Source: Thermococcus sp.
Lineage (GTDB): Archaea; Methanobacteriota_B; Thermococci; Thermococcales; Thermococcaceae
Direction: 5' to 3'
Length of the DNA: 32,172 bases
NCBI RefSeq assembly: GCF_026988555.1
Contig: NZ_JALSLB010000065.1
Coordinates: 1-32,172 of the forward strand
A model generated the notes under the pieces. The model was not told the origin of the DNA. It saw only the letters and a program-made list of their open reading frames with translations, and did no database searches. Shown here in pieces: positions 18,727 through 32,101 of the stretch. The stretch's first letter is position 1. Each line of letters starts with the position of its first letter. The position numbers were made by a program, and so were the translations under genes.

Positions 18727-19932
18727 TTACCCTTCTTCTTTTTCGGCCTCTTTTTCTTCCATGAACTTCCTCACATAATCGGGAACCTTGTAGTTGCCCT
18801 TCGGGTCTCCTACCAGGAAGCCAAGCCTCAAAAGCTCGTTGAGCTGGTCATAGACTTGCATTCCGGGCCTCCTGACGGCCTTCGCGATCTGGATGTAGCT
18901 TACCGGTCCCCCGTTGAACTCGAAGACCACGGCCTCGACCAGGTCCTTGTAGTCCTTCGGGATCCTCGTGAGGTACTCCTCAAGGCTCTTCGGCTCCTCA
19001 AGGATCGTCGTAACCACGTAGTCGTCAATCGGATCGAACTTGTGCTTCGCGGCCTCACTCAGCACGTAGTGGAGAAGGCGGAGGATCTGCCTTGGATTGC
19101 CCTTGTCGAGCTGATGGATGAGCTTTACTGCTTCCTTGGTGAACGGGTAGAGCGGGTCGTCGGTGTCCCTTACCCTGACGCGGTTGAGCCGCTTCTTGAC
19201 GAGTTCGTAGGCCTCATCAAGGCTCATGGGCCTCAGTTTGAACTCGTAGTGGAGGCGCATAAAGAACGCCGGGAATATCTTGGTGTACTCCTCGTAGGCC
19301 TCAGGGACGCAGGCGAAGGCCACAACGCACCCCTTTGGCATGTTGCTTATGAAGTGCCTGAGCATCTCGAAGAACTGAATCTTCTCCTGCTCGCCGGCGC
19401 TCCCCATGTTCTCAAGCTCATCAAGAAGTAGGGCACAGTACGGGTACTTCCCCATCTGCTCGGTTAAAAGCTCGGCTATGTCCCTGCTCTTGTACTCCCC
19501 GGTGGAGGACAGCATCTTCTCCAGACGGTCGATGAACCCCAGCTTCCTGGACAGGTTCTCAAGGAAGATGTTGGTCCGGCTCCTGGGCGGTTTAAGGGCG
19601 TAGAATACATCCCTCGTAAGCTTCAAGATGTCGTTGGTGTCAACCTTGATGTATATCGCCTTTCCCCTCTGCTCCTCAATGGCCTTCAGAATGGTCTTCA
19701 ACCTCTGGGTCTTCCCCATCCCAAGCGGACCGACGATGCTGAAGGCTATCGAACTCTTGTTGCCCACGATCTCCGAGATTATCATCTGTATGCGCATGTC
19801 CACCTCCTGATAAACGTGAATGCTCTCCACGTCGGCTATTCCCTCACTCGCCAGCTGTTCAAAGGGGTTTCGAGAAAGACCGTACACCTCGTATGATCGG
19901 TATGGGTAAAGCTTAAGGCCACCGGATTCCAT
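18727..19932 (-). CDS. AAA+ ATPase with C-terminal winged helix (Orc1/Cdc6-like architecture)
   Basis: A 401-residue P-loop ATPase. Walker A is GPLGMGKTQR (residues 68-77), Walker B is CALLLDELENMG near 166-177, and a sensor-type segment VVAFACVPEAYEEY follows. The lid region near 240-300 contains KGNPRQILRLLHY, matching the sensor 2 arginine of STAND/Orc-type ATPases. The last 90 residues form a winged helix (VSYIQIAKAVRRPGMQVYDQLNELLRLGFLV) and then a charged lysine/glutamate tail. It resembles the archaeal Orc1/Cdc6 layout but lacks clear origin-binding features, so a regulatory or DNA-handling ATPase is a safer description. ATG follows GGTGAG. The divergent THUMP gene shares the 61-base promoter gap with a TATA-like AAATATAAAAA. 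Confidence 0.78.
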   Translation of the reverse strand: MESGGLKLYPYRSYEVYGLSRNPFEQLASEGIADVESIHVYQEVDMRIQMIISEIVGNKSSIAFSIVGPLGMGKTQRLKTILKAIEEQRGKAIYIKVDTNDILKLTRDVFYALKPPRSRTNIFLENLSRKLGFIDRLEKMLSSTGEYKSRDIAELLTEQMGKYPYCALLLDELENMGSAGEQEKIQFFEMLRHFISNMPKGCVVAFACVPEAYEEYTKIFPAFFMRLHYEFKLRPMSLDEAYELVKKRLNRVRVRDTDDPLYPFTKEAVKLIHQLDKGNPRQILRLLHYVLSEAAKHKFDPIDDYVVTTILEEPKSLEEYLTRIPKDYKDLVEAVVFEFNGGPVSYIQIAKAVRRPGMQVYDQLNELLRLGFLVGDPKGNYKVPDYVRKFMEEKEAEKEEG

Positions 19933-19993
19933 TTTAACTCACCGGATAACTTAAGCATGCGAAATATAAAAACTTGTCCATCGGTGAGCAGAG

Positions 19994-20488
19994 ATGATGG
20001 TTCTTTTAGTCACCGCCCCCCAGGGGCGTGAAGGCGATGCGATACTGGAACTTGAATGGGCGCTTGGGAAGGTCCGCATTATGGGGACTGATTGGAAAGG
20101 GGTTCTCCTTGCGGAAACACCCCTCCCTAGGGAGGAGGCCTTGAGGCTTCTTAGGGAGTTTGAGACCCAATCGATCTTCCGGGTCGTTCCCCTTGATGAA
20201 CTTGTGCGGAGCGATGAGAATAGAATTATGGAGAGGGCGGTTGAGATTGCCCGGAAACGGATAAAACCCGGCGAGAGCTTCGCCGTAAGGTGCAAGAAAA
20301 GGGGGGATAAAATAAAGTCCGGTAAGGGCATCGAACTCAGATTAGGGGCAAGGGTAAAGGAGGAAACAGGGGCGACCGTCGATCTGAATTCCCCCAAATG
20401 GTACGTCTTCGTGGAGATTCTGGGTAGGAAGACGGGAGTGGCCGTTGTGGGGGCGGGGGAAGCTGTTAAAAAGCGGGTTGAAGAGTAG
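19994..20488 (+). CDS. THUMP-domain RNA-binding protein (Tan1-like, COG1818)
   Basis: A 164-residue protein with an N-terminal ferredoxin-like half and a C-terminal THUMP half. The first strand LLVTAPQGREGDAILELEWALG and the segment RIKPGESFAVRCKKRGDKIKSGKGIELRLGARVKEETGATVDLNSPKWYVFVEI are characteristic of THUMP proteins such as yeast Tan1, which helps tRNA N4-acetylcytidine formation, and of the stand-alone archaeal COG1818 group. It probably binds the tRNA acceptor stem. The usual partner in archaea would be an acetyltransferase of the TmcA/Kre33 type elsewhere in the genome. The tandem ATGATG at 19994 follows GGTGAGCAGAG. Confidence 0.82.
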   Translation: MMVLLVTAPQGREGDAILELEWALGKVRIMGTDWKGVLLAETPLPREEALRLLREFETQSIFRVVPLDELVRSDENRIMERAVEIARKRIKPGESFAVRCKKRGDKIKSGKGIELRLGARVKEETGATVDLNSPKWYVFVEILGRKTGVAVVGAGEAVKKRVEE

Positions 20489-20663
20489 TGCGGCGCTGGT
20501 ACCACGGGACCCCAATGCCAACCCGGGAATAAAATCCGATTCAAAAACGGCCCAGTGTCCGAAAACGCCTTCTAAACTACTTCTTACTCTCAGAACATCT
20601 TTCTTAGATGGTTATACCACAAAACGGATAAAAAGAACGCTTTATGATTCACCGGTGATTGAG

Positions 20664-21184: not shown

Positions 21185-21595
21185 TCAAACACCCTGCCCC
21201 TTGGCCTTCTTTTTCTCCTCAAGCTTCCGCCTTACCTCCTCGATTTTCTCCTCCTTCAGTGGGATGAACTTGTCGTCGTAGTTGTCGTAGCTGGCTAAGA
21301 GAAAGTCGTTGCTCATTCGTAATGCCCCGGTCGGACAGACGTCGACGCACTGCTTGCAGAAGACACAACGGGCTGTCCAGAGGGCTACTTTCCTGATGTC
21401 CGGCAGGTAAACAAAGACACCTGCCGGGCAGACGGTTACGCACATTCTGCAACCAACGCACTTGTCAACGTTGTAGCTTATTATTCCCCTGAAGTCCTCG
21501 GGTATTGGAACTGGCTCTGTCTCTGGAAAGAGGTTGGTCGCCGGCTTTTTTGCTAGGTTCCTCAGCACTGTTGGGACGAGTATTGGTGCCCTCAC
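21185..21595 (-). CDS. mbhN: Membrane-bound hydrogenase subunit MbhN (2[4Fe-4S] ferredoxin-like)
   Basis: A 136-residue NuoI-like electron-transfer subunit, the distal electron input of the membrane-bound hydrogenase. Two classical 4Fe-4S motifs are present: CVGCRMCVTVCP near residues 46-57 and CVFCKQCVDVCP near 77-88. Residues before the first motif contact the membrane arm, and the lysine/glutamate-rich tail (KLEEKKKAKGQGV) is flexible. Electrons from reduced ferredoxin pass from here to MbhJ and the Ni-Fe site. The GTG start at 21595 overlaps the mbhM stop and is preceded by GGAGGTGAT. It is the last gene of the operon. Confidence 0.95.
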   Translation of the reverse strand: MRAPILVPTVLRNLAKKPATNLFPETEPVPIPEDFRGIISYNVDKCVGCRMCVTVCPAGVFVYLPDIRKVALWTARCVFCKQCVDVCPTGALRMSNDFLLASYDNYDDKFIPLKEEKIEEVRRKLEEKKKAKGQGV

Positions 21596-22584
21596 ATTAT
21601 CACCTCCATCGCTATGAGAAGTGATCCGACGAGCGACGCTAAGAAGACGTTTTTCCAGAGGAAGTCAACGGCCTGCGTTATCTTCAGCCTTCCCGTCACT
21701 GTCCTGAAGACGCTATCTACGACGAAGAGCAGCACGAAGACCTTGAGTGTGTGGAAGAGCAGGTTCACGATGCCCGCTGAGAGGCCGGTGAGGTTGCAGT
21801 AGCTCGCTATCCCCCAGGGGAAAAATATCGCCACGACGAGGGAAGCGGCTATGTAAGCCTTGAGCGCCTTCGTCAGCTTGAGCAGGGCAAGGTACCTTCC
21901 GCTGTACTCCACGAGCAGTCCCTCGGCTATTTCCTCCTCGGCGTCGGGTATGTTGAAGAACCCGACCTCAATCTCGCTCGCCAGCCACACTGCGAAGACG
22001 TAGAGGAGTATTATCGCCCCAACGAAGCTCATCGGCGTCCCTATCTCCCAGATGTTGTGCCTGTAAAATATCCCGAGGCTGAATGGCTTGGTCACGCCGA
22101 GCTTACCGAGGCGCCACATTATGGCGAATATCGCCAGCATCATCGCCGGCTCTCTAGACACCATTATCGTCGCTTCCCTCGCGGCTCCTATTTTCGCGTA
22201 CGGACTGCCAGAGCTTATGGCGCCGACTATCTTGAAGAAGCTTATCAGGGCGAGGAGGTAGATGAAGACGATGACGTCACCTTTGCTCGCCAAAATCGGC
22301 GAGAAGCCCATCGGTGTATAAGCTAGGAGCGCTATGGCAGTCGCTAAGGCTAAAACTGGCGCGGCCCTGAACATGTAGTTGGCAGTGTTTGGAACTATCG
22401 TTTCCTTGCTGAGGAGCTTTAGAAAGTCGTAGAATGGCTGTATCAGTGGCGGTCCAACGCGCCTCTGCATTCTGGCGACCAGCTTCCTGTCTATTCCCTC
22501 CCAGAGGAGTGAGGCGAGTGAGACGAAGCCGTAGAGGCCGAGTAGACCTGCGACCGGGTAAACGATGTTGCTCATCACGTTCAT
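21592..22584 (-). CDS. mbhM: Membrane-bound hydrogenase subunit MbhM (NuoH-like)
   Basis: A 330-residue membrane subunit with about eight transmembrane helices, homologous to complex I NuoH. It anchors the hydrogenase module and couples its charge movements to the Mrp-like arm. Family segments include RKLVARMQRRVGPPLIQPFYDFLKLLSKE near residues 29-57, the conserved REATIMVSREPAMMLAIFA, and the acidic loop NIPDAEEEIAEGLLVEYSGRYLALLKL, matching the E-rich quinone-side loop of NuoH. I prefer the ATG at 22584, which has GAGGTGAT about 5 bases upstream; an ATG at 22590 overlaps the mbhL stop (TGATG) and is the alternative. Confidence 0.94.
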   Translation of the reverse strand: MNVMSNIVYPVAGLLGLYGFVSLASLLWEGIDRKLVARMQRRVGPPLIQPFYDFLKLLSKETIVPNTANYMFRAAPVLALATAIALLAYTPMGFSPILASKGDVIVFIYLLALISFFKIVGAISSGSPYAKIGAAREATIMVSREPAMMLAIFAIMWRLGKLGVTKPFSLGIFYRHNIWEIGTPMSFVGAIILLYVFAVWLASEIEVGFFNIPDAEEEIAEGLLVEYSGRYLALLKLTKALKAYIAASLVVAIFFPWGIASYCNLTGLSAGIVNLLFHTLKVFVLLFVVDSVFRTVTGRLKITQAVDFLWKNVFLASLVGSLLIAMEVIM

Positions 22585-22589
22585 CCCCA

Positions 22590-23867
22590 TCACCTCGAAC
22601 AGGTCACCCCGAGGGGGCTTGGGTCGCCCTTCACCTCGGGGTTAATCTCGCGCGTCTTCTTTATCGATGCCTTGAGGAGGTCCCTCTCGGTTAAGATTCT
22701 CTTCCTGCCGTCTTCAACGATTGCCACCCTGTCGGTACAGCTCAGGCAGGGGTCTATTGAGGCAACTGCGACAACAAAATCCGCGACCTGGTCGCCCTTA
22801 ACGCCCTCGGCAACCGCGAAGAGGTTCGGGAAGGTCGGCTCCCTTGGCTTCCAGCGGAGAGGCTTGTCGCTTCCCTTCTTTCCGCGGACGTAGTGAATCA
22901 GCTCTCCCCTCGGGGCTTCGTACCTACCAACCCCTTCTCCGTCCACCATTATCCTGAGCTTCGCGACCAGGATGTTGTCCTTTGAAAAAACCTTGATTTT
23001 CCCGTCCGGCATCCCGTCGAGGGCGTGCTCTATAAGCTCAAGGCTCTGCCACAGCTCGCCTATTCTCACGGCCATTCTGTCGAAAACGTCCCCCCTCGGC
23101 CTCTCGCCCGTAACGTCCTGGGGCATAACGGGCTTTATCCCGAGGTCTGGATAAACGCCGAGCCTCTCGCTCCATCTCGCGTCGTCTCTAATGCCGGAAC
23201 CTCTTCCGGTCGGGCCGACTGCGCCCTGCTCAATCGCGACGCGCCTGCTTATCACTGCCGTGTCCCTGAAACGGGCCTCTATCGTCGGGTCGTGGAGGAA
23301 TACCTCCTCAATCTGGGGAAATACCCCCTTGTAGTACTTTATCATGTCGAGGATTATCCTTCTCTTCTTCTTGTCTATGTCCCTCCTGACGCCCCCTATT
23401 GTTACCATCGAGTAGTTCACGCGGTTTCCTGCCACCGCCTCAAGGGTGTCCATGACCTTCTCACGGGCGAGCCACGTGAGATGCAGAACCGTGTCATAGC
23501 CTATGTCGTGGGCCAAAACTCCGAGGTTGAGCAGATGGGAGTGGATTCTCTCCAGCTCGCCGACGATGACGCGAATGTACTCCGCCCGCTCGGGCACCTC
23601 TATCTCGGCCGCCTCCTCGACGGCCCTTGTGTAGGTGTGGTTGTGCGAGAAGGAGCAGATTCCGCACATCCTCTCCGCCAGATACATTATCTGGACGTAG
23701 TTCCTCCTCAGGGCTATCCACTGGATTCCCCTTAAGTTGTAGCCGAGCTTGACATCGACATCAACTATCCTCTCGCCGTCGAGCGTTAGAATGAACTTCT
23801 CGGGCTCTTCTAAGCCCGGATGAATCGGACCGAAGGGCATCTTGACCCAGTACTCGACTTTGGTCAT
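22590..23867 (-). CDS. mbhL: Membrane-bound [NiFe] hydrogenase large subunit MbhL
   Basis: A 425-residue catalytic subunit, homologous to NuoD, that reduces protons to H2 with electrons from ferredoxin. The four Ni-Fe cysteines are present as RMCGIC near residues 65-71 (RxCGxC) and DPCLSC near 373-378 (DPCxxC). Group 4 features include Arg instead of the usual His after the second motif (CTDR), and the protein stops about 45 residues later. Its ATG at 23867 overlaps the stop of the small open frame in the upstream repeat insert (ATGA), with RBS GGGGGTGGGAAGAA. Without the insert it would follow mbhK directly. Confidence 0.96.
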   Translation of the reverse strand: MTKVEYWVKMPFGPIHPGLEEPEKFILTLDGERIVDVDVKLGYNLRGIQWIALRRNYVQIMYLAERMCGICSFSHNHTYTRAVEEAAEIEVPERAEYIRVIVGELERIHSHLLNLGVLAHDIGYDTVLHLTWLAREKVMDTLEAVAGNRVNYSMVTIGGVRRDIDKKKRRIILDMIKYYKGVFPQIEEVFLHDPTIEARFRDTAVISRRVAIEQGAVGPTGRGSGIRDDARWSERLGVYPDLGIKPVMPQDVTGERPRGDVFDRMAVRIGELWQSLELIEHALDGMPDGKIKVFSKDNILVAKLRIMVDGEGVGRYEAPRGELIHYVRGKKGSDKPLRWKPREPTFPNLFAVAEGVKGDQVADFVVAVASIDPCLSCTDRVAIVEDGRKRILTERDLLKASIKKTREINPEVKGDPSPLGVTCSR

Positions 23868-24036
23868 TTCTTCCCACCCCCAGAGCCCTTTGCTTTGCAA
23901 AGCGCTCGCGGAAACTCCCTCACTGCAATATCGGCATTATTTCGAATGGGTGCCTCACCAATTTTCTTCTGGCTTTTGTTCATCTGTGAAATGCGCCCTT
24001 CGGGAGTAAAGTGAGTGTGAACCCCTTGGACTGGCC
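23864..24036 (-). repeat. 173-bp structured insert, copy A (between mbhK and mbhL)
   Basis: On the plus strand it carries, in order, GAGCCCTTTGCT (23883-23894), AGCGCTCGCGGAAA (23901-23914) and GCGCCCTTCGGG (23993-24004), each shared exactly with copy B. The first two form an imperfect stem around the perfect palindrome GCTTTGCAAAGC (23892-23903), and the third contains a CCC-TTC-GGG hairpin. The unit starts with the 18-mer at 23864-23881 that recurs with one mismatch at 24037-24054, just outside the unit (TCATTTCTTCSCACCCCC), like a target-site duplication that includes the ribosome site and start of the flanking genes. Confidence 0.6.
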
Positions 24037-24040
24037 TCAT
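23864..24040 (-). CDS. Small open frame (58 aa) filling the mbhK-mbhL gap
   Basis: The minus-strand frame begins with an ATG overlapping the mbhK stop (ATGA) and ends in a TGA overlapping the mbhL start (ATGA), so it fills the gap exactly. The predicted peptide has the segment VHTHFTPEGR near its N-terminus, also seen as VHCHYTPEGR in the frame between mbhJ and mbhK, and ends RALCKAKGSGGGKK. Only the first third is similar between the two peptides; the shared DNA downstream is read in different frames, so this may be an incidental frame kept open by a repeat element rather than a functional protein. It is not among the 14 known Mbh subunits. An RBS-like GGGGGTG precedes it. Confidence 0.3.
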   Translation of the reverse strand: MRPVQGVHTHFTPEGRISQMNKSQKKIGEAPIRNNADIAVREFPRALCKAKGSGGGKK

Positions 24041-24600
24041 TTCTTCGCACCCCCTATCTTGTATGGATGACCTGCGTTGTGGACCATTTCCTCTGGCACG
24101 CCTTTGTCGTCGAGGCGGAGAGGGTATATCCCCTCCGGGAAGTCGTCCGGCAAAAAGAGCCTTCTCCTGTCTGGCGCTCCTTCGAAGTCTATGCCGACCA
24201 TCTCCATGCCCTCCCTCTCGAATTGGAGGGCTATCGGAAAGATGTCACTGATGTCTGGCAAAGTTGGCTCGTCCTTGGGCGTGTGGGCGTCCACTATGAG
24301 AGATACAGCCGGGGCGTCGTCGTAGTAAATCACGAGGTGGTTCAGGAAGCCGAGCTCCTCCCCCCAGTCCTGCTCGATGCCTATCGAGTAGTGAGTCTCA
24401 CCGTCAAGCGCTTTTAAAAACTTCATCAGCTCGCGGTAGTCCTCCTTTTGGACTCTCACCCAGACCCTCTCGCGCCCCCACTTGTTGGTCTTGACCTCGA
24501 CCCTGGCGTTGGGGAAGCGCTCCGCTATTGCATTCGCGACCTTCTCGGCCTTGGTGGGCTCTTTAACCTCAGTTCCCTCGTTAGCATGAGTCTCGCTCAT
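24037..24600 (-). CDS. mbhK: Membrane-bound hydrogenase subunit MbhK (NuoC-like)
   Basis: A 187-residue NuoC-like subunit of the peripheral hydrogenase arm. Typical family sequence begins near residue 60 (YSIGIEQDWGEELGFLNHLVIYY) and includes FEREGMEMVGIDFEGAPDRRRLFLPDDFPEGIYPLR, equivalent to the EREVYDMFGI...DLRRIL motif of NuoC. The first 25 residues are charged and variable. It has no cofactor and stabilises MbhJ and MbhL. The ATG at 24600 follows GGAGGTGAAAGA. Unusually, it is separated from both neighbours by repeat inserts, although each junction retains an ATGA overlap with a small open frame. Confidence 0.93.
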   Translation of the reverse strand: MSETHANEGTEVKEPTKAEKVANAIAERFPNARVEVKTNKWGRERVWVRVQKEDYRELMKFLKALDGETHYSIGIEQDWGEELGFLNHLVIYYDDAPAVSLIVDAHTPKDEPTLPDISDIFPIALQFEREGMEMVGIDFEGAPDRRRLFLPDDFPEGIYPLRLDDKGVPEEMVHNAGHPYKIGGAKK

Positions 24601-24814
24601 TCTTTCACCTCCAGGAGCCCTTTGCTCCGCATGTTGGGACAGAGCCCCAACACGTCGGGAAGCTTCGCTTCCCACGAAGCGCTCGCGGAAAGTATTTTTC
24701 TAACCAACTGGGCACCTTGTGGGGTGGGGGGCTCTTCACCCGATTTCTCCTCAGCGTTCACCTTCTTGGAGCGCCCTTCGGGCGTGTAATGACAGTGAAC
24801 CTTTCCAAACGTCA
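24597..24814 (-). repeat. 218-bp structured insert, copy B (between mbhJ and mbhK)
   Basis: It contains the same three modules in the same order as copy A: GAGCCCTTTGCT at 24615-24626, AGCGCTCGCGGAAA at 24678-24691, GCGCCCTTCGGG at 24771-24782. The distance from the second to the third is 93 bases against 92 in copy A, while the first spacing is 63 against 18. The extra 45 bases add two hairpins: GTTGGG/CCCAAC (24633-24651) and GGGAAGC-TTC-GCTTCCC (24657-24673), nested in the outer stem. The flanks TCATTCTT at 24597-24604 and 24815-24822 are direct repeats at the two gene junctions. Confidence 0.6.
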
Positions 24815-24818
24815 TCAT
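24597..24818 (-). CDS. Small open frame (73 aa) filling the mbhJ-mbhK gap
   Basis: The frame begins with an ATG overlapping the mbhJ stop (ATGA; a second ATG follows immediately) and ends in a TGA overlapping the mbhK ATG, so it also fits the gap exactly. The predicted peptide begins MMTFGKVHCHYTPEGRSKKV, with VHCHYTPEGR resembling VHTHFTPEGR of the 58-residue frame, then a hydrophilic EEKSGEEPPTPQG stretch, then residues encoded by hairpin DNA (SASASWEAKLPDVLGLCPN). I know of no such subunit in Mbh. It may be a translated repeat element that maintains coupling between genes; codon use in the hairpin part does not look selected for protein. Confidence 0.3.
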   Translation of the reverse strand: MMTFGKVHCHYTPEGRSKKVNAEEKSGEEPPTPQGAQLVRKILSASASWEAKLPDVLGLCPNMRSKGLLEVKE

Positions 24819-25324
24819 TCTTCCAGACCCCCCTTCAACATTTTCGCGAGCTTTTCCAGCGCCAAAACGACGCCGTGGAGTATTGCCTCTGGTCTCGGTG
24901 GACAGCCCGGGACGTAAACATCTACCGGAATGACGTTGCTCAGCGGTGCGTTGGTGAAGGGGCTCTCGTAGAAGACGCTCCCGCCGGTGGGGCAGGAGCC
25001 TACAGCGACCACTATCTTCGGCTCGGGCGTCTGCTCGTAGACCAGCTTAACCCTCTCGAGGCTCTGGTTGGTTACCGGCCCGGTAACGAGGAGTATGTCG
25101 GCATGCCTCGGACTGCCGACGAGCTTGACTCCGAAGCGCTCCGCGTCGTAGCGGGGCGTTAGGGCCGCTATTATCTCGATGTCGCAGCCGTTGCACGAGC
25201 CGGTGTTCACGTGGAAGACCCACGGTGACTTCCCGATGAACCTGCACAGCTCGGCGATTCTCTTCTCAAGCCTCTCGCGTTCCGGTGAGTTTGAACCTCC
25301 GTTAGCGGGAACGGTTATTGTCAT
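24815..25324 (-). CDS. mbhJ: Membrane-bound [NiFe] hydrogenase small subunit MbhJ (NuoB-like)
   Basis: A 169-residue subunit that holds the proximal 4Fe-4S cluster and passes electrons to the Ni-Fe centre in MbhL. Cluster ligands are visible in TGSCNGCDIEI (C44 and C47), VGSCPTGG (about 110) and PGCPPRPEA (about 139), as in NuoB. The segment SPRHADILLVTGPVTNQSLE is strongly conserved in group 4 hydrogenases. The first 16 residues (TITVPANGGSNSPERE) are variable. ATG at 25324 overlaps the stop of a 30-residue open frame that spans the gap to mbhI (AGATGA). Confidence 0.96.
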   Translation of the reverse strand: MTITVPANGGSNSPERERLEKRIAELCRFIGKSPWVFHVNTGSCNGCDIEIIAALTPRYDAERFGVKLVGSPRHADILLVTGPVTNQSLERVKLVYEQTPEPKIVVAVGSCPTGGSVFYESPFTNAPLSNVIPVDVYVPGCPPRPEAILHGVVLALEKLAKMLKGGLEE

Positions 25325-25413
25325 CTCACTTCACCCCCTATGAGCCTTGTTATGAAGGGGTTTCTCACGTTTCTTTTTTCAAATTCCACAATCATGAACG
25401 CCACTTTTTTCAC
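25321..25413 (-). CDS. Very small open frame (30 aa) between mbhI and mbhJ
   Basis: A GTG overlapping the mbhI stop (GTGA) opens a frame that ends in TGA overlapping the mbhJ ATG. The predicted peptide, with VAFMIVEFEKRN and FITRLIGGEVR, is basic and amphipathic. Its RBS would be GGGGG within the end of mbhI. The flanks TTCACCCCC at 25330-25338 and 25409-25417 are identical, as in the inserts around mbhK, but the internal sequence is unrelated to them. It may simply be a leader that couples translation. An ATG at 25393-25395 is a possible later start (24 residues). Confidence 0.3.
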   Translation of the reverse strand: MKKVAFMIVEFEKRNVRNPFITRLIGGEVR

Positions 25414-25757
25414 CCCCAGATTAGTAGCACTCCCATGACGAAGGCGGTAACTATGACGAGGTAGCTCACGTAGTCGGTCAGCAGTCCGGTGTGATCGGCC
25501 TTGAGGGCGGTGAAGAAGCGCTTGAGCGCGTAGGTCAGCCCCCACATGACGTTCCTGCCGGTGTAGTGACCCTCGAGGTGCTCGAAGCCCGGAATCACCT
25601 CCTCGGGGTCCTCACCGCTTATGAATATCTTCGTCCCGTCGCCGACTTCCCTCGTCCCCATGCTGCTCCTCTTGGCCCACTTGTCGAGGATGTAAGCCAG
25701 GATTAGGCCGATGATGAAGACGAAGACGAAGTAGAGGGCGTCCCAGTAGCCGAACAT
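25410..25757 (-). CDS. mbhI: Membrane-bound hydrogenase subunit MbhI
   Basis: A 115-residue connector subunit with one hydrophobic helix at each end: residues about 5-24 (YWDALYFVFVFIIGLILAYILD) and 90-114 (VSYLVIVTAFVMGVLLIW). The soluble middle is short and charged (GEDPEEVIPGFEHLEGHYTGRNVMWGL). It corresponds to the piece that joins the Mrp-like ion-translocating arm with the hydrogenase membrane module and resembles the end of NuoL/MrpA. ATG at 25757 follows GGGGGTGCGTGAA, one base after the mbhH stop. Confidence 0.9.
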   Translation of the reverse strand: MFGYWDALYFVFVFIIGLILAYILDKWAKRSSMGTREVGDGTKIFISGEDPEEVIPGFEHLEGHYTGRNVMWGLTYALKRFFTALKADHTGLLTDYVSYLVIVTAFVMGVLLIWG

Positions 25758-25758
25758 T

Positions 25759-27306
25759 TCACGCACCCCCTAAGACCGCTCCAATGTAAGCCAGCTGGTT
25801 CTCAAGAGCCTTCGCGGCTGGAATCATGACCTTGTCGCTTATCTGCCACGGGAAGAGCCCCATGACGATTATCGCAGCCGTTAGGAGTATTATCGGTATC
25901 ATCATGCTTCCCTCGGGGTCTTTGGCCTTCATGACACTCTCGCCCGGCCTTCCTAAGAAGGTGTAGAGCACCTTGACGTATGCCGCTGTACAGAATGCCG
26001 TTCCGATTATCGCTATCGCACCGAGTATCGGGTTGAATACCGCTGAACTCTCGTAGATGAGCCACTTGCTCGCGAAGCCGTTGAGGGGCGGCATTCCTAT
26101 TATCGCGGCCGCACTAATCAGGAAGGCGAATGTGGTCTTAGGCATGGTCTTGGCTAAGCCGCTCAGCTCGTTGAGGTCCCTCGTGCCGAGCTGGTGGATT
26201 ACGACGCCCGCAATCAGGAAGAGGAGTGCCTTCATGAGGGCGTGGTTGAAGGTGTGGTAAATCGCCCCCGCCATTGCTGTTTCTCCCGTCTGGCTTCCGT
26301 AGGCCGCTAAGCCGATTCCGAGGCCGAGGAGGATGTAGCCTATCTGTCCGACCGAAGAGTATGCTAAGAGCCTCTTCATGTCGTTCTGGATTACCGCCAT
26401 CGCGTTGCCGACTACCAGCGTTATGCAGGCGAAGATGATGATGACCCACCCGACGGTCTTCACGCTTATGCTCGCCCCATAGATGCTGAAGAGTATCCTC
26501 GTGAGGGCGTAGATTCCGCCTATCTTGATGACGAGACCGGAGAGCATCGCACTTATCGAGCTCGGCGCGGCCGGGTGGGCGTCTGCCAGCCACATGTGGA
26601 CTGGAGAAGCACCGCTCTTGAAGAGAAGTCCCGCTATGAAGAGCGCCAGGGCAACCTTGGCCGTAACGCTCGGGCTTTCAGCGAGCTTGACCGCCAGATA
26701 GCTCATAGTGAGCGTTCCGTACTGGCCGTAGAGGAGCGCTATGCCGAGGAGCACGAAGGCGCTCGCTATCGAGCCGACGAACATGTACTTGATACCGGCT
26801 TCAATGCCCTCCCAGGTGTCGTTCCTGAAGGCGACGAGAGCGTAGCTGGCGATGCTCATTATCTCTAGGAAGACGTAGAAGTTGAAGAGGTCGCCGGTTA
26901 CCGCTATGCCGAGCATTCCGAGCTCGAGGATTATGATGAGGGTGTAGTACTTGTCGAGGCCGGTGTCGTGCTTCATGTAGCCGAGGGAATAGAGAACCGC
27001 CAGGAAGCTCACGAGCGTTACCATGAGGACCATTATCGCCCCGAAGAGGTCAACTTCCCAGACTATCCTTATCGGGAAGCTGACGCCTTGGCCGAGCGGG
27101 CTCTTGGCGCCGAGGGTGTAGACGAGGATTTCCTTCGTGTCCCAGACGCTGTAAAAGATCCCCGAGCCGACTATCAAAGTCGCGCCGGAAATCAAGACAG
27201 CCCACGCTTCCCTGGCCTTTCTTCCGAGAAGGTTCACTATCGGCATCGAGAACGCTCCGAAGAGAGGGATGATTATGAGGTAGGGAAGTATTGCCTCGCC
27301 GTTCAT
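25759..27306 (-). CDS. mbhH: Membrane-bound hydrogenase subunit MbhH (MrpD/NuoN-like antiporter)
   Basis: A 515-residue, 14-helix antiporter-type subunit, the main proton-translocating element of the complex. Functional landmarks are the Glu in TM5 (LFNFYVFLEIMSIASYALV), the lysine in KSGASPVHMWLADAHPAAPSSISA, the broken-helix region, the lysine in DMKRLLAYSSVGQIGYILLGLGIG and the His-rich IYHTFNHALMKALLFL. This order matches MrpD and NuoN. Proton flow through MbhH is thought to drive sodium export by the MbhA-C/F-G part. ATG at 27306 overlaps the mbhG stop (ATGA). Confidence 0.96.
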   Translation of the reverse strand: MNGEAILPYLIIIPLFGAFSMPIVNLLGRKAREAWAVLISGATLIVGSGIFYSVWDTKEILVYTLGAKSPLGQGVSFPIRIVWEVDLFGAIMVLMVTLVSFLAVLYSLGYMKHDTGLDKYYTLIIILELGMLGIAVTGDLFNFYVFLEIMSIASYALVAFRNDTWEGIEAGIKYMFVGSIASAFVLLGIALLYGQYGTLTMSYLAVKLAESPSVTAKVALALFIAGLLFKSGASPVHMWLADAHPAAPSSISAMLSGLVIKIGGIYALTRILFSIYGASISVKTVGWVIIIFACITLVVGNAMAVIQNDMKRLLAYSSVGQIGYILLGLGIGLAAYGSQTGETAMAGAIYHTFNHALMKALLFLIAGVVIHQLGTRDLNELSGLAKTMPKTTFAFLISAAAIIGMPPLNGFASKWLIYESSAVFNPILGAIAIIGTAFCTAAYVKVLYTFLGRPGESVMKAKDPEGSMMIPIILLTAAIIVMGLFPWQISDKVMIPAAKALENQLAYIGAVLGGA

Positions 27307-27662
27307 CCTCTCAACCTCCTTAGGGCTCTCACGTCAAGGGTTCCGTAGTGGCGGTAGGCGTTTATCGTCAAAGCCACAGCCAGTGAGAGGACACAGACGC
27401 CGATGACTATGCTCGTGAGGACCAGCGCCTGTGGGAGCGGGCCGACCATCGGGCTCTTCAGCGTCTCGTAGCCGGTGTAAATCGGCGCGGTCGGGATCTG
27501 GTTCAGCTCTATGCGGTAGCCGAGGCTGATGAGGAGAAGGTGTATTCCTGAGTCTATGATATCAAGCGCTAAAATCAGCTTTATCAGGTTCCTCTTTGCT
27601 AGGAAGGCGTAGATTCCGAGGACTGTGAGAAGGAACGCTGTAATGAACTGGAACTGAATCAT
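27303..27662 (-). CDS. mbhG: Membrane-bound hydrogenase subunit MbhG (MrpC/NuoK-like)
   Basis: A 119-residue, three-helix protein homologous to MrpC and NuoK. TM1 is near residues 3-22, TM2 KLILALDIIDSGIHLLLISLGY near 28-49 with the buried Asp/His pair, and TM3 near 80-105 (ALVLTSIVIGVCVLSLAVALTI). The loop between TM2 and TM3 is longer than in NuoK. ATG at 27662 overlaps the mbhF stop (ATGA) and is preceded by AGGAGGTGGAAGTC, which rules out the GTG at 27671. Confidence 0.93.
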   Translation of the reverse strand: MIQFQFITAFLLTVLGIYAFLAKRNLIKLILALDIIDSGIHLLLISLGYRIELNQIPTAPIYTGYETLKSPMVGPLPQALVLTSIVIGVCVLSLAVALTINAYRHYGTLDVRALRRLRG

Positions 27663-28105
27663 GACTTCCACCTCCTGTACATCGCTATCGCGGTGAGGGC
27701 GCTAACTAGCCCCGTAAAGACCTTTAGACCGACTGCCAGGTTCATTATCGGCAGGAATCCTGCCGAGAGGAGCGTTCCTGGTTCTCCGTTGAAAACTGGC
27801 CCATTGTGCCAGAGCGTGTTGTAGAAGAACGCAACGCCCATGCCGAGCATCGCCGCGCCGAGGAATACGAGGCCGCCCACTCCCTCCAAGACCGAGTAGA
27901 GGCTCTTGTTGTAGTGCTCCTTCATCCCGTCGAGGCCAAAGGCGACAAGGAACAATATACCCGCTCCCGCTATCGTCGCTCCTCCCTGGAAGCCACCCCC
28001 GGGTGTAAGGTGACCGTGCACCACTATGTAGGCACCGAAGATTCCTATGAGCGGGATTATAGCCCTGGCAGTGGTCTTCACTATGAGCCCCATATCCTCT
28101 CTCAT
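27659..28105 (-). CDS. mbhF: Membrane-bound hydrogenase subunit MbhF (MrpB-like)
   Basis: A 148-residue, four-helix MrpB/MnhB homolog. It contains the diagnostic YIVVHGHLTPGGGFQGGATIAGAGILFLVAFG near residues 25-57, which is almost invariant in MnhB proteins and lies close to the putative sodium path, and a C-terminal helix (NLAVGLKVFTGLVSALTAIAMY). ATG at 28105 overlaps the mbhE stop (GCATGA), which decides the start. Confidence 0.94.
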   Translation of the reverse strand: MREDMGLIVKTTARAIIPLIGIFGAYIVVHGHLTPGGGFQGGATIAGAGILFLVAFGLDGMKEHYNKSLYSVLEGVGGLVFLGAAMLGMGVAFFYNTLWHNGPVFNGEPGTLLSAGFLPIMNLAVGLKVFTGLVSALTAIAMYRRWKS

Positions 28106-28398
28106 GCCTGGTCCCTCCTCCAGGGCCTTAGAAGGGCTATCGCGCCGGCTATGGCCGTGAAGAGAACCGTCGCCTCTCCAATCGTATCGTAGCCCCTGTA
28201 ATCAAACACGATGTCTGTGACTATGTTCGTACCTCCCACTTCTTTGAGGCCGTGGGTGATGTAGTAGTTGTCCGTGTATCTCAACGAGAGCCACTCCTTT
28301 CCACCTGGACCGAAAGTTAATCCGTAGTTGGGGTTCGCTATGTAGAGGAGCGCTCCAAGGATGAACAGCAGTGAGAGGTATGCTATCGTTCTCTTCAC
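28102..28398 (-). CDS. mbhE: Membrane-bound hydrogenase subunit MbhE (MrpA C-terminal/MrpB-like)
   Basis: A 98-residue membrane protein with a hydrophobic helix near residues 4-22 and another near 75-92 (GEATVLFTAIAGAIALLRPW), with an ordered external segment between them (NIVTDIVFDYRGYDTIGE). The last motif, VFDYRGYDTIGEATVL, is typical of the MrpA C-terminal/MbhE family. The start is a GTG at 28398 overlapping the mbhD stop (GTGA) with GGAGGTGG upstream; an ATG at 28413 would lie inside mbhD. Confidence 0.9.
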   Translation of the reverse strand: MKRTIAYLSLLFILGALLYIANPNYGLTFGPGGKEWLSLRYTDNYYITHGLKEVGGTNIVTDIVFDYRGYDTIGEATVLFTAIAGAIALLRPWRRDQA

Positions 28399-28658
28399 GG
28401 TTCCACCTCCCATCTCTCGGTCTTCGCTATGCCGTAAACCACAACGGCTGTGACAACCCCAGCTCCAACGGCTGCCTCGGCTATGGCAACGTCAGGTGCG
28501 TGGAGCATGTAGAACTCAAGGCTCAGGAGCAGGCTCATCGCGGCCGACATTAGGGCGGCGGCCAGCAAATCTCTAAAGCGAATCGTGAGGTAGGCCGTGA
28601 TGAGGACGCCGATTAGGATAATCGCCTGAATCGTCATGTCAATCGTTAGGGCGTTCAT
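28395..28658 (-). CDS. mbhD: Membrane-bound hydrogenase subunit MbhD (MrpA-like)
   Basis: An 87-residue, three-helix membrane protein related to a C-terminal segment of MrpA. Helices are near residues 8-24, 30-50 (LLAAALMSAAMSLLLSLEFYML) and 57-75 (IAEAAVGAGVVTAVVVYGI). The motif HAPDVAIAEAAVGAGV is a hallmark of this segment, and its acidic residues lie on the ion pathway in Mrp-type complexes. ATG at 28658 overlaps the mbhC stop (ATGA) and follows GAGGAGG. Confidence 0.92.
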   Translation of the reverse strand: MNALTIDMTIQAIILIGVLITAYLTIRFRDLLAAALMSAAMSLLLSLEFYMLHAPDVAIAEAAVGAGVVTAVVVYGIAKTERWEVEP

Positions 28659-29020
28659 TCCTCCTCACCCCCGAGCTTCTCCTCGTAGGCATCGATGACC
28701 GCTCTGGCTGGCTTGTAGCCGCTCAGGTGTGCGGCCTTGGCTATTGCATGTGCCCCGACGGGGTTCGTTAAGAGGAGAGCCACCAGCGCGATGAGGCTGT
28801 GGAGGGCCATCCCGAGATACTTCGGGTCGCCTGTGACGTGAAGCCTGTAAAGGGCGTGGGTAACCACAGCTAAAACAGCGAATATCGTTCCGAAGGTGGT
28901 GCACTTTGTCGCCCCGTGGAGCCTCGTGTAGACGTCGGGGAAGCGGTGTAACGCGATACTCCCGAGGAGGTTGAAGGTTATGTTTATCGCGAGGAAGGCA
29001 TAAATCAGGTACTCGATCAT
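28655..29020 (-). CDS. mbhC: Membrane-bound hydrogenase subunit MbhC (MrpG-like)
   Basis: A 121-residue MrpG/MnhG homolog with three helices near residues 3-24, 40-60 and 70-88. The hallmark segment is GSIALHRFPDVYTRLHGATKCTTFGTIFAVLA near residues 20-51, and the last helix ends in LLLTNPVGAHAIAKAAHLSG, both family-typical. The charged C-terminus faces the cytoplasm. ATG at 29020 overlaps the mbhB stop (ATGA). Confidence 0.94.
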   Translation of the reverse strand: MIEYLIYAFLAINITFNLLGSIALHRFPDVYTRLHGATKCTTFGTIFAVLAVVTHALYRLHVTGDPKYLGMALHSLIALVALLLTNPVGAHAIAKAAHLSGYKPARAVIDAYEEKLGGEEE

Positions 29021-29280
29021 TCCAATCCCCCCTGGAGGTATCTGGCTACGACGAGTGTTCCGATGTAGCTTAGCAGAGCGTAAACGATGGCTATGTCGAT
29101 GTAAATCGTCCTGTCGTAGGCCGCGCCGAGGAGAACCATGCCTGCCACAACCAGTGTGTTGAGCGTATCAACTCCAACGACTCTATCGGGGACGCTCGGT
29201 CCGAGCAGAATCCTGAGTATGGCCAAGAACGCGCCTATCGCTATAATCAGTGCCGAGTAGAAGAAGGCCGGTTCAATCAT
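29017..29280 (-). CDS. mbhB: Membrane-bound hydrogenase subunit MbhB (MrpF-like)
   Basis: An 87-residue, three-helix MrpF/MnhF homolog: helices near residues 5-25, 35-54 and 57-80. The motif LRILLGPSVPDRVVGVDTLNTLVVAGMV is nearly invariant in MrpF, with the Asp residues (PDR, VDT) inside the membrane and likely part of the ion path. ATG at 29280 overlaps the mbhA stop (ATGA). An upstream GTG/ATG in the frame lies inside mbhA and is unlikely. Confidence 0.94.
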   Translation of the reverse strand: MIEPAFFYSALIIAIGAFLAILRILLGPSVPDRVVGVDTLNTLVVAGMVLLGAAYDRTIYIDIAIVYALLSYIGTLVVARYLQGGLE

Positions 29281-29780
29281 CTTCCCAGCCTCCTCGCCCA
29301 CTTTTCGAAGGGACCCGATACCGGCTCCGAGTTTTCCGGCCTCTCCAAGCCGGGGGGAATGTCAATCCAGTGGACGTAGAGGGCCTTCTCCCCCGGGCAG
29401 GCATCGATAGTGAGCGTTCCAGGGGTTAGCGTTATCGAGTTGCTCAAGATGGTATACTGGGCGTCGTTCTCAAGCTCGACCGGAACCCTGACAATGCCCG
29501 GCCTTATCTTTCCGGTTATGACGAGGTAAGCAACGTGGAAGTTGGCCTTGACCATCCCCCAGAAGAGGACCGGAACGTATGCAATCCACTCGAGCCATCT
29601 AACTGGGTTCAGGAAGCGGGTCGATTTGTCCCCTACGATGTCCTTAGTCGCATACCCGACTATTCCGGCGAATATTAAGCCTGCTATCAGCTCCTGCGTG
29701 CTCCAGAGCAGTCCGTTCGTTCCGGCCGTCAGGATGAGCCAGATTAAATAGGCGAACACGAAAGCCGAAATGAAGGGCAA
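29277..29780 (-). CDS. mbhA: Membrane-bound hydrogenase subunit MbhA (MrpE-like), TTG start
   Basis: A 167-residue MrpE/MnhE homolog and the first gene of the operon. It has hydrophobic helices near residues 3-20, 25-45 and 60-80, then a soluble C-terminal domain with RPGIVRVPVELENDAQYTILSNSITLTPGTLTIDAC, the conserved NSITLTPGT of MnhE. The start appears to be TTG at 29780: a strong GGAGGTGG lies 4-5 bases upstream and no in-frame ATG or GTG would keep the first helix intact. A non-ATG start on the leader gene may lower translation. It follows a promoter with a SurR site. Confidence 0.9.
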   Translation of the reverse strand: MPFISAFVFAYLIWLILTAGTNGLLWSTQELIAGLIFAGIVGYATKDIVGDKSTRFLNPVRWLEWIAYVPVLFWGMVKANFHVAYLVITGKIRPGIVRVPVELENDAQYTILSNSITLTPGTLTIDACPGEKALYVHWIDIPPGLERPENSEPVSGPFEKWARRLGR

Positions 29781-29848
29781 GCTACCACCTCCGGGTTAAC
29801 ATTTTTGTTTTCCTACGGTTGTGATTTCTCGTCTCTGCTTAAAACGCT

Positions 29849-29856
29849 TTTTTAAA
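29849..29856 (-). promoter_or_regulatory. TATA box of the mbh operon
   Basis: TTTAAAAA on the minus strand, in the context GGACTTTAAAAAAGCG. Initiation about 25 bases on would lie near 29827 and leave a leader of roughly 45 bases before the TTG start. A second A/T-rich stretch (CGTTTTAAGC) just downstream is a weaker alternative. Confidence 0.5.
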
Positions 29857-29868
29857 GTCCTGATTGCC

Positions 29869-29875
29869 AAAAAAA
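29869..29875 (-). terminator. T-tract after the mobA-like gene
   Basis: Seven T residues on the minus strand, about 32 bases past the mobA-like stop and just before the mbh TATA box. They would separate the upstream transcript from mbh. Confidence 0.45.
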
Positions 29876-29890
29876 GGTAGGAAACCGCTC

Positions 29891-29907
29891 GTTGTAAACC
29901 AAAGGTT
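29891..29907 (+). promoter_or_regulatory. SurR binding site of the mbh operon
   Basis: GTT-GTA-AAC-CAAAG-GTT, a complete match to the published SurR consensus GTTn3AACn5GTT. The site is about 45 bases upstream of the mbh TATA box, the activating position reported for SurR at P. furiosus hydrogenase promoters. SurR is a redox-sensitive regulator that releases DNA on exposure to elemental sulfur, so the hydrogenase would be shut off when sulfur is available. The final T coincides with the last base of the mobA-like stop. Confidence 0.7.
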
Positions 29908-30506
29908 TAAATTTGAGGTCTGGAGATATCAAGTTTGTTTTCCAAATTTTCTACGTCTTTCCTCCGGTTGACGTTGAAAAAGCTAACGTGCCACTCTTTG
30001 GGGACATCCTCCAAAGGAAAATAGCAAACCTTCGCTATTTCAAGGGCCTTCTTTATCTGGTATTCCCCCTCATCGAGCCGTTTCTTTATTGCCCGCATGA
30101 ATCCCTTTGAATATGCTGCATGGAGGGGCTCAATGTAGCCGTTTGGCCACCTCGGAACACATGCGTCTACCTCCTTTTTCCGGAACTCTCCGATTATGGT
30201 CTCAACGATCTCCGGGACTATGGAGGGCATGTCACCGGCAACCACAAAGGCGTCGCCAAGTTTTAGGGCGGTATAAATCCCGCCGAGCGGGCCAACGAGG
30301 AGCTCGTCCACAATAATTCTTCTTCCAAAACGTTCGAGACTCCCCGCGTTCTCCGGGGAGGCTATCAAAACCACTTCCTCTATAGAGGGACAGCTTTCAA
30401 GCCTCTCGATGGTGTGAAGAACCAGCGGTTTCCCGTCTATCCTGTGGAGGAGCTTGTTACCACCGAACCTCCGGGACCTCCCGCCAGCCAAAACAGCCCC
30501 GATCAT
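29907..30506 (-). CDS. mobA: MobA-like molybdenum cofactor guanylyltransferase
   Basis: A 199-residue nucleotidyltransferase that would attach GMP to molybdopterin or tungstopterin to make the dinucleotide cofactor. The N-terminal signature GAVLAGGRSRRFGGNK (residues 3-18), the GPLGGIYTAL loop near 72-81 and the metal-binding GDMP at 91-94 fit the MobA family; the C-terminal HVSFFNVNRRKDVENLE is also typical. The dinucleotide form is needed by formate dehydrogenase but not by Thermococcales aldehyde ferredoxin oxidoreductases, so the gene suggests an FDH nearby. ATG at 30506 follows GGAGGAG. It lies 32 bases after the antiporter gene, on the same strand, and is probably cotranscribed with it. 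Confidence 0.88.
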   Translation of the reverse strand: MIGAVLAGGRSRRFGGNKLLHRIDGKPLVLHTIERLESCPSIEEVVLIASPENAGSLERFGRRIIVDELLVGPLGGIYTALKLGDAFVVAGDMPSIVPEIVETIIGEFRKKEVDACVPRWPNGYIEPLHAAYSKGFMRAIKKRLDEGEYQIKKALEIAKVCYFPLEDVPKEWHVSFFNVNRRKDVENLENKLDISRPQI

Positions 30507-30538
30507 GATGACTCCTCCGGAAAAAGAATAAAAAAAGT

Positions 30539-32101
30539 TCACGGAAGCTTCAGCTTTGAGGCGTACTCAACTGCCGTCTGGACGTAAAGCTTCCAGTTTA
30601 CAGTCTGCGAGGCCGCTGGAGTTATGTAGTGGTCAATGACATAAGGTGCAACCAGGCCGAGCGCGATGCACACCACTGCAAGGACCAGAAGCACAGCCGA
30701 CATGCTCGCCTTCTCCCTGGCCTCAACTTCCCTCCTCGGCCTTCCAAGCCACACCTCGTAGAACACCCTGACGTAGGCAACCAGTGCTGTAACTGAGCTG
30801 AGCACGAGGACTAAGGCCAGACCAAAGCTCCTCTCCATCAGCGCGTTGAAGAGCAGAAGCTTGCTGAAGAACACGTTGAACGGCGGAACACCAACGAGGC
30901 TCAGAGTGGCTATTCCGAGGGCGAAAGTGGTGACTGGCATCTTCCTGCCCAGACCGGCTAAATCCTCGATTGTTCTTGAACCGACCTCGTGGATGAAGGC
31001 TCCGGCAGCGAGGAAGAGGAGAGCCTTCGCTATTGCGTGATTAACCATGTGGAAGAGGGCCGCCTCAAGGCCCAGCTTTGTACCAAGGCCAATTGCCATG
31101 AAGAGGTAGCCCATGTGCATTACCGTCGAGTAGGCTATGAGTCTTTTCACGTCCCTCTGGACGAGCATCATTATTGCACCGAACATTGCCGAAACCGCGC
31201 CAAGCGCTATGGCTATGGTGCTAAGCAGAGAGACCACCTGGGCCAAATTGCCGGAAACTCCTCCGTAGACTGTGTACAGGAACCTTAGCAGGGAGTATGC
31301 TCCAACGTTGACGACCAGTCCGGAGAGAACTGCCGAGATGGGACTCGGTGCTGCCGGGTGTGCCTCTGGGAGCCAGAAGTGGTTGGGGAAGATAGCAGCC
31401 TTAATGAGGAACGCCCACGTTGCCAAAGCCAGCGCGACGCCGGAGGCGATGACCACATCACCCCAGGCGCTGCCAACGACCGGGAAGCTCATGCCGTGGA
31501 TTAAAGCGCTCAGGTTGGCCATGTTAACCGTTCCAAAGGCATAGTAGAACGCCCCAAGGGCCAGGAAGTACATCGTCGTGCCGATGGCGCCTATGAAAGC
31601 GTACTTCAGCCCGGCACAGATTGAGTCGCCCCTGTCACGGTAGAACATCACAAGAGCATAAGCCGCGATGCTGGTAACTTCTATCATGACGAAGAGGTTG
31701 AATGCGTCTCCAGTTAGGAGGACTCCTAACAGGCCGGCCTCAAGGCCGAGGTAGAGCGTGTAGTACCATTCTAAGCCAGAGTCGTGCTCAAGGTAGCGGT
31801 AACTGTAAATTGCTATCACGAACATCAGAAAGGCAGTAACGAGCGCCATTAAGGAGCTCAGCTTATCAACCTCATAGATTATGCCCACTGGAGCGGCCCA
31901 GCCACCGAAGGTGTAGATCAACGGCTTATTCGAGGAGTAGGCAAGCTGGAAGAGTTTGAACGCGCTCAGCAGGGTTAAGCCCGTGCCGAGCAACGCGTAA
32001 CCCTGGATGAGCTTTCTGTTCCCCCTAACTATTATCGACGTTAGGGGCAGAGCGAAGGCGAAGAGGATTGGAATGATTGGGGTTAATCCCACAACGTTCA
32101 T
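30539..32101 (-). CDS. MrpD/NuoL-type proton-translocating antiporter subunit (not part of mbh proper)
   Basis: A 520-residue, 14-helix antiporter-type membrane protein, paralogous to MbhH (similar length and motif order). The TM5 acidic motif is LLTGDAFNLFVMIEVTSIAAYALVMF, the first lysine is in FLIKAAIFPNHFWLPEAHPAAPSPISAV, the second in VQRDVKRLIAYSTVMHMGYLFMAIG, and the His helix is LFHMVNHAIAKALLFLAAGAFIHE. It belongs to a different Mrp- or hydrogenase-type complex whose genes lie to the right; formate hydrogenlyase (Mfh/Mnh), CO-hydrogenase and Mrp antiporter clusters all contain such subunits. ATG at 32101 has GAGGTGGTAGC upstream, right after the preceding stop. Confidence 0.88.
   Translation of the reverse strand: MNVVGLTPIIPILFAFALPLTSIIVRGNRKLIQGYALLGTGLTLLSAFKLFQLAYSSNKPLIYTFGGWAAPVGIIYEVDKLSSLMALVTAFLMFVIAIYSYRYLEHDSGLEWYYTLYLGLEAGLLGVLLTGDAFNLFVMIEVTSIAAYALVMFYRDRGDSICAGLKYAFIGAIGTTMYFLALGAFYYAFGTVNMANLSALIHGMSFPVVGSAWGDVVIASGVALALATWAFLIKAAIFPNHFWLPEAHPAAPSPISAVLSGLVVNVGAYSLLRFLYTVYGGVSGNLAQVVSLLSTIAIALGAVSAMFGAIMMLVQRDVKRLIAYSTVMHMGYLFMAIGLGTKLGLEAALFHMVNHAIAKALLFLAAGAFIHEVGSRTIEDLAGLGRKMPVTTFALGIATLSLVGVPPFNVFFSKLLLFNALMERSFGLALVLVLSSVTALVAYVRVFYEVWLGRPRREVEAREKASMSAVLLVLAVVCIALGLVAPYVIDHYITPAASQTVNWKLYVQTAVEYASKLKLP

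Follow-up and report, generated by a model that had tools for sequence, protein, structure and literature searches.

The question raised by this locus is whether the intergenic DNA in front of its mbh operon carries an operator that places hydrogen production under the sulfur switch of the regulator SurR, and which parts of that DNA belong to such an operator. A first-pass annotation of the window, i.e., the whole stretch of 32,172 nt analysed here, had reported a complete SurR motif upstream of the mbh promoter. The genes on either side of the site are the following:

21185-29780, minus strand: mbh operon, 14 ORFs in the order A to N, assigned by gene order, with eight of the 14 ORFs scanned against profiles.
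29277-29780, minus strand: mbhA (MrpE-like subunit), the first gene of the operon, with a TTG start (PF01899, NF006245).
22590-23900, minus strand: MbhL with the motifs RMCGIC and DPCLSC, read from the sequence.
29907-30542, minus strand: mobA-like gene upstream of mbh, whose TAA stop codon overlaps the palindrome described below by one base (NF001457, PF12804).
30539-32101, minus strand: MrpD-like antiporter subunit gene, which lies upstream of mobA and overlaps it (PF00361).

The operon is a genuine mbh operon encoding an H2-evolving membrane hydrogenase, with its 14 genes in the order A to N, gene M after gene L, and both CxxC motifs of the NiFe ligands in MbhL. An MBS or MBX identity was considered and rejected on account of the two CxxC motifs of MbhL, the position of gene M after L, and the presence of an mbs-type operon elsewhere in the genome. 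This other operon, on contig C54, comprises 13 genes in mbs order (subunit labels by position and size), and its L subunit shows RICVPES and DNCPPD at the motif positions in place of RMCGIC and DPCLSC. The mobA-like and stand-alone MrpD-like genes (29907-32101) are co-directional with mbh, and the cluster of loci with these upstream genes comprises five of the 85 mbh loci compared, including the window. The window also contains an MMPL-family transporter-like ORF of 1363 aa (7307-11398, minus strand) and, downstream of the mbh operon, two ORFs of 401 and 197 aa (18727-20544, minus strand) that gave no Pfam match at 1e-6.

The site itself consists of two overlapping matches and can be described as a single element:

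29883-29907, strand-symmetric: SurR operator, full palindrome, arms 1 and 2 (based on the sequence, its chance level and 85 related mbh promoters).

On the plus strand, GTTGTAAACCAAAGGTT (29891-29907) is a full match to GTTn3AACn5GTT, the extended form of the SurR core GTTn3AAC, so that the complete motif is present as had been reported. The report even understated the case, since the minus strand also carries a full match, GTTTACAACGAGCGGTT (29883-29899), and the overlap of the two makes the whole site a 25-bp palindrome, AACn5GTTn3AACn5GTT. The final base of the mobA stop codon (29909-29907) is also the first of this palindrome, beyond which, towards mbh, come a run of seven T and then the core promoter; the location upstream of the promoter of a genuine mbh operon, in front of its BRE and TATA box, is likewise confirmed. 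GTTn3AACn5GTT has only these two matches in the window, against a mean of 0.11 after shuffling, and at least two matches were obtained in two of 100 dinucleotide shuffles. In the whole genome (1,972,058 bases in 68 contigs), the 17-mer is found 38 times and its reversed-pattern control eight times, while the palindrome with at most one mismatch occupies 17 places versus one for the reversed control (each place was listed on both strands, and the 17 are places). The exact palindrome exists in four copies, located before mbh, before the mbs-type operon (C54:93550), between ShyB-like and sudB-like genes (C30:10726), and before an iron-dependent alcohol dehydrogenase gene (C16:9530).

The SurR gene, whose absence the first-pass annotation had named as an argument against its own reading, is present in the genome. 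The ortholog (G000:C54:66833-67549) encodes an ArsR-type protein of 238 aa with the N-terminal redox motif CTEC and matches PF0095 (2qlz) at E 2.4e-90. A Pdo-like gene, named by its two CxYC motifs and its position, is divergent from surR, with SurR motifs in the shared intergenic region, and a ferredoxin-like frame (by cysteine pattern) comes next in this neighbourhood; the same arrangement is described for TK1086-TK1088 of T. kodakarensis in an excerpt of PMC4247193. SurR matches occur in all 94 genomes of the order and amount to orthologs by score in 92 of them (in G081 split over two contigs), the two exceptions being G010 (77% complete) and G064 (75% complete). Two HTH matches on different contigs (G000:C12:4022-4162 and G000:C63:6424-6564) agree in score, E-value and length of the frame (101 aa), one of them near a contig end, and are possibly a duplicate sequence in the assembly.

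The gene context was read for 37 of the 38 motif places, including that of the window. Promoter-like places precede hypF, a hypD operon, hypA, a nickel-hydrogenase subunit and a molybdopterin oxidoreductase gene; a ShyB-like gene, two sudB-like genes, a CoA-disulfide-reductase-like gene and thiI; and a hydrogenase-4 D-type gene, cbiM, an Lrp-like HTH gene, mbs, pdo and surR. Among these labels, frhA, ShyB, CoA-disulfide reductase and CbiM lie below the NCBIfam cut-off, and the gene at C30 is presumably Nfn. Judged from these neighbouring genes, the promoter copies of the motif are the textbook SurR regulon. Across the order, the long motif shows no excess over the reversed control in genera g5 and g6 or in several genomes of g3 and g4, although all eight genomes of g5 (G086-G092) and g6 (G093) encode SurR.

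The position of the operator relative to the core promoter requires the latter to be placed:

29838-29845, minus strand: TATA box GTTTTAAG (by the pattern [ACG]TTTTA[AT] in related promoters).
29846-29853, minus strand: BRE-like element AAAAAAGC, just upstream of the TATA box, from the sequence.
29785-29792, minus strand: ribosome binding site GGAGGTGG of mbhA, from the sequence.

The TATA box was taken as GTTTTAAG because [ACG]TTTTA[AT] is found at 83 of the 85 related mbh promoters, compared to 15 of 85 for CTTTAAAA. The earlier placement, apparently at the latter (29850-29857, minus strand, with a range ending at 29849), is about 12 bp off. Transcription would be expected to start near 29810-29816. 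The palindrome is located 37 bp from the TATA box and upstream of BRE and TATA, which is the activating position. Spacing alone gives no guide to activation or repression. A spacing of 9 bp, common in this genome, is found at the hyp promoters and equally at the promoter of the CoA-disulfide-reductase-like gene, which is probably Nsr. Repression of the Nsr gene by SurR is described in a portion of PMC12162507. Since the same 9 bp thus occur at a promoter probably repressed by SurR, spacing is not diagnostic, and a rule by which activated and repressed promoters differ in spacing was rejected.

The operator is conserved in relatives. MbhA matches were found in 93 of the 94 genomes of the order, and 85 of these were used (best match at least 62.5% identical); of the nine dropped, G054 has no match, and G010, G049, G060, G061, G063, G065, G083 and G093 have weaker matches only. 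In the stretch 85-185 bp upstream of mbhA, all 12 palindrome bases are found in 52 promoters, 11 in 27 and 10 in six, so that all 85 keep at least 10 of 12, compared to a shuffle average of 1.55 of 85, while a control stretch 500-600 bp upstream never exceeded nine in the 82 loci long enough to include it. The best site lies 36-38 bp from the TATA box in 74 promoters, and in the other 11 at 23 bp (three) or 51 bp (eight), i.e., one 14-bp arm away. When read strictly at 36-38 bp, the counts are 12 in 52, 11 in 17 and 10 in 13, with three promoters at 9, 7 and 7. In 11 loci (L059, L061, L062, L064, L066, L068-L072 and L109), mbh and a Fer4_22 ShyB-like gene point away from each other (by longest frame), and there the palindrome may serve two promoters.

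With the site, its palindromic form, its conservation, its distance to the TATA box, the SurR gene, the identity of the operon and the matching promoters all observed, it is very probable that reduced SurR acts through this operator to activate mbh in the absence of elemental sulfur. In such a mechanism, reduced SurR would bind the palindrome upstream of BRE and TATA and help to recruit the transcription machinery, whereas in the presence of sulfur its CxxC pair would be oxidised and SurR would release the DNA, a release that would turn mbh off and relieve mbs. Binding, activation and redox response are expected here by analogy with published work on relatives, and orthology strongly suggests that hydrogen production is linked to the sulfur switch, which would place this process in the organism under an established control.

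A further question is how much of the DNA between the palindrome and the TATA box belongs to the operator. Two segments are concerned:

29869-29879, minus strand: TACCTTTTTTT, T-tract, a putative degenerate third arm in the 14-bp register (conservation beside divergent genes; arm-score peak at offset 23).
29855-29865, minus strand: AATCAGGACTT, a possible degenerate fourth arm (arm-score peak at offsets 9-10).

The run of seven T (29875-29869, minus strand) does lie between motif and TATA box, as the first-pass annotation had it. It appears better read as a weak third SurR arm than as primarily a terminator. In the extended form of this reading, which is tentative, the site is a SurR array with AACn5GTT arms every 14 bp, the last one ending 9 bp upstream of the TATA box. 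Equally tentatively, at mbh two strong distal arms would nucleate SurR and two conserved weak arms would extend it cooperatively, so that its contacts might run on in 14-bp steps through the T-tract and the next block. The array was read post hoc from the same data that suggest it. Before the mbh TATA box, the AACn5GTT score averages 5.4 of 6 at offset 51, 5.4 at 37, 3.6 at 23 (the T-tract), and 3.4 and 3.5 at 9 and 10, the latter being slightly higher; the remaining offsets in the range 0-36 average 1.4. Scores are raised near the array offsets in each of seven subgroups, and register 9 (tied with 10) is the best of 21 shifts in the group average. Off-register rivals of the third arm also occur, as offset 17 ties with it in one Pyrococcus group, offsets 56, 38 and 39 beat it in g4, and offsets 36 and 35 are near or above it in g5.

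A tally of site ends extends this register beyond mbh. It covered 37 of the 38 places of this genome, the first 30 of 55 in G024 (which is taken to be T. kodakarensis KOD1) and the first 30 of 43 in G021, with both ends taken and duplicates and non-final array members removed, giving 164 site ends; TATA boxes were scored within 65 bp by a hand-made 13-position weight list with an author-chosen cut-off. A good TATA box was found for 39 ends, of which 17 lie at 9 mod 14 (13 at 9, two at 23 and two at 37) against 2.8 expected from an even distribution, and 22 lie off this register. Beyond 9 bp, the only fitting gene families are Fe-ADH (23) and mbh (37), each in two genomes. The misfits in the genome itself include mbs (11-12), the Nfn-like gene at C30 (16), the Lrp-like gene (34-36) and hypA (15 or 1), together with the sudB-like gene at C29, the Mrp/hydrogenase-4 D gene and pdo. 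Exact same-strand sites 14 bp apart form three pairs in G024 and two in G021, and none in this genome. Among the papers listed in literature searches, none dealt with a SurR half-site or SurR array as judged by titles and the openings of abstracts, and neither these nor the consulted excerpts of papers that cite the primary SurR work contained the corrections to T-tract and TATA box or the phasing idea. The phasing represents a testable rule for the register of one archaeal regulator to the TATA box. If the array is true, the hydrogenase operon would have a graded or cooperative sulfur switch, and surveys that count exact motifs alone would miss part of the operator.

It is unlikely that the T-tract instead binds a second regulator, or serves as a bendable stretch of DNA separating SurR from the TATA box, as might be thought from its conservation, which is comparable with that of the operator, and from its core ACCTTTNTTTNNCAA, which is found exactly at only two places in the genome, the window and C25:17714-17728, and with one mismatch at 14 versus eight for the reversed control. 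However, the T-tract falls into the register of the SurR arms and is similar to arm 1 (on average 7.3 of 11), and the C25 match overlaps a SurR palindrome with one mismatch (C25:17705-17729).

Rather improbable is the reading of the first-pass annotation, in which the T-tract is the intrinsic terminator of the upstream MrpD-mobA genes and the palindrome alone belongs to the mbh promoter. Termination in the Thermococcales is T-rich, and the seven T lie on the correct strand about 32 bp past the stop of the co-directional mobA gene. However, a terminator would be kept only after a co-directional gene end, and 22 genomes in which the upstream gene was called divergent retain a similar block (consensus ACCTTTnTTTtCAA) equally far from the TATA box. 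The mean number of T in 14 positions is 6.7 in these 22, 7.1 in 13 promoters called co-directional and 6.4 in 50 unassigned ones, where orientation was called from longest frames and similarity to an exemplar, with one Pfam-checked exemplar per divergent group: Fer4_22 (ShyB-like), pyridine nucleotide-disulphide oxidoreductase (TrxR-like), TRAM and TldD. As it is conserved equally beside divergent-called genes, termination of the upstream operon was rejected as the reason for its presence; the T-tract may end mobA transcripts in this genome. Finally, that the motif is a chance match is next to impossible, for even if about a dozen of the 38 genomic matches lie inside genes and are, in the authors' reading, probably chance, both motif forms far outnumber their reversed controls and the site is kept in all 85 related mbh promoters compared, mostly at a fixed distance.

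With the SurR operator as the preferred reading, the response of mbh to sulfur may be predicted from the presence or absence of a second site near the start. A motif near the start (about -29) that keeps eight or more of nine bases is found in 32 of the 85 mbh promoters, compared to 0.85 predicted by shuffling, and it has changed at least 14 times on the MbhA tree, whose support is modest (13 of 79 inner branches starred); two of these calls, L066 and L072, lie in short-leader promoters and may be chance. This downstream site is absent from the promoter of the window (best 6 of 9), in which the distance from TATA box to start is 65 bp, versus 86-93 bp in 30 of the 32 near-site promoters. The mbh promoter of G024 (L063) likewise has the upstream site only. 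In T. kodakarensis, transcription of mbh ceases shortly after sulfur is added, as stated in the available portion of PMC4247193, whereas mbh1 of T. aciditolerans, with upstream and downstream SurR sites, is described in an excerpt of PMC12401011 as high with or without sulfur. As mbh1 is insensitive despite its upstream site, such a site alone does not guarantee sulfur control. Since the window resembles T. kodakarensis in having the upstream site only, classical sulfur shut-off of mbh is predicted here by analogy. If the array is true, whether a promoter has one upstream site or a downstream site as well would help to predict which Thermococcales stop H2 production on sulfur.

In comparison with known systems, the arrangement is of the published SurR-mbh type, and the site is an ordinary one, known in kind. 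The consulted parts of PMC12401011 and PMC12162507 place the SurR site of mbh upstream of BRE and TATA and describe activation by SurR in the absence of sulfur. The mbh promoters of P. furiosus and T. kodakarensis, as described in papers that cite the primary work, share with the window the SurR motif upstream of the TATA box, the mbh operon and a SurR with CxxC encoded beside pdo; in both organisms the system is controlled by SurR, as is predicted for the window. A long motif upstream of mbh is also reported in excerpts on T. piezophilus and T. barophilus (PMC8595942, PMC12162507). For T. piezophilus, the excerpted text places a long mbh site at 127 bp and a short one at 21 bp from the start (PMC8595942), the same two distances as in locus L082 (G029). 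The promoter of the window differs in having the upstream site only and a TATA-to-start distance of 65 bp. Lastly, the passages on T. aciditolerans mbh1 in PMC12401011 describe an upstream SurR site as in the window, together with an added downstream site and no response to sulfur, in contrast to the promoter of the window, which carries the upstream site alone.
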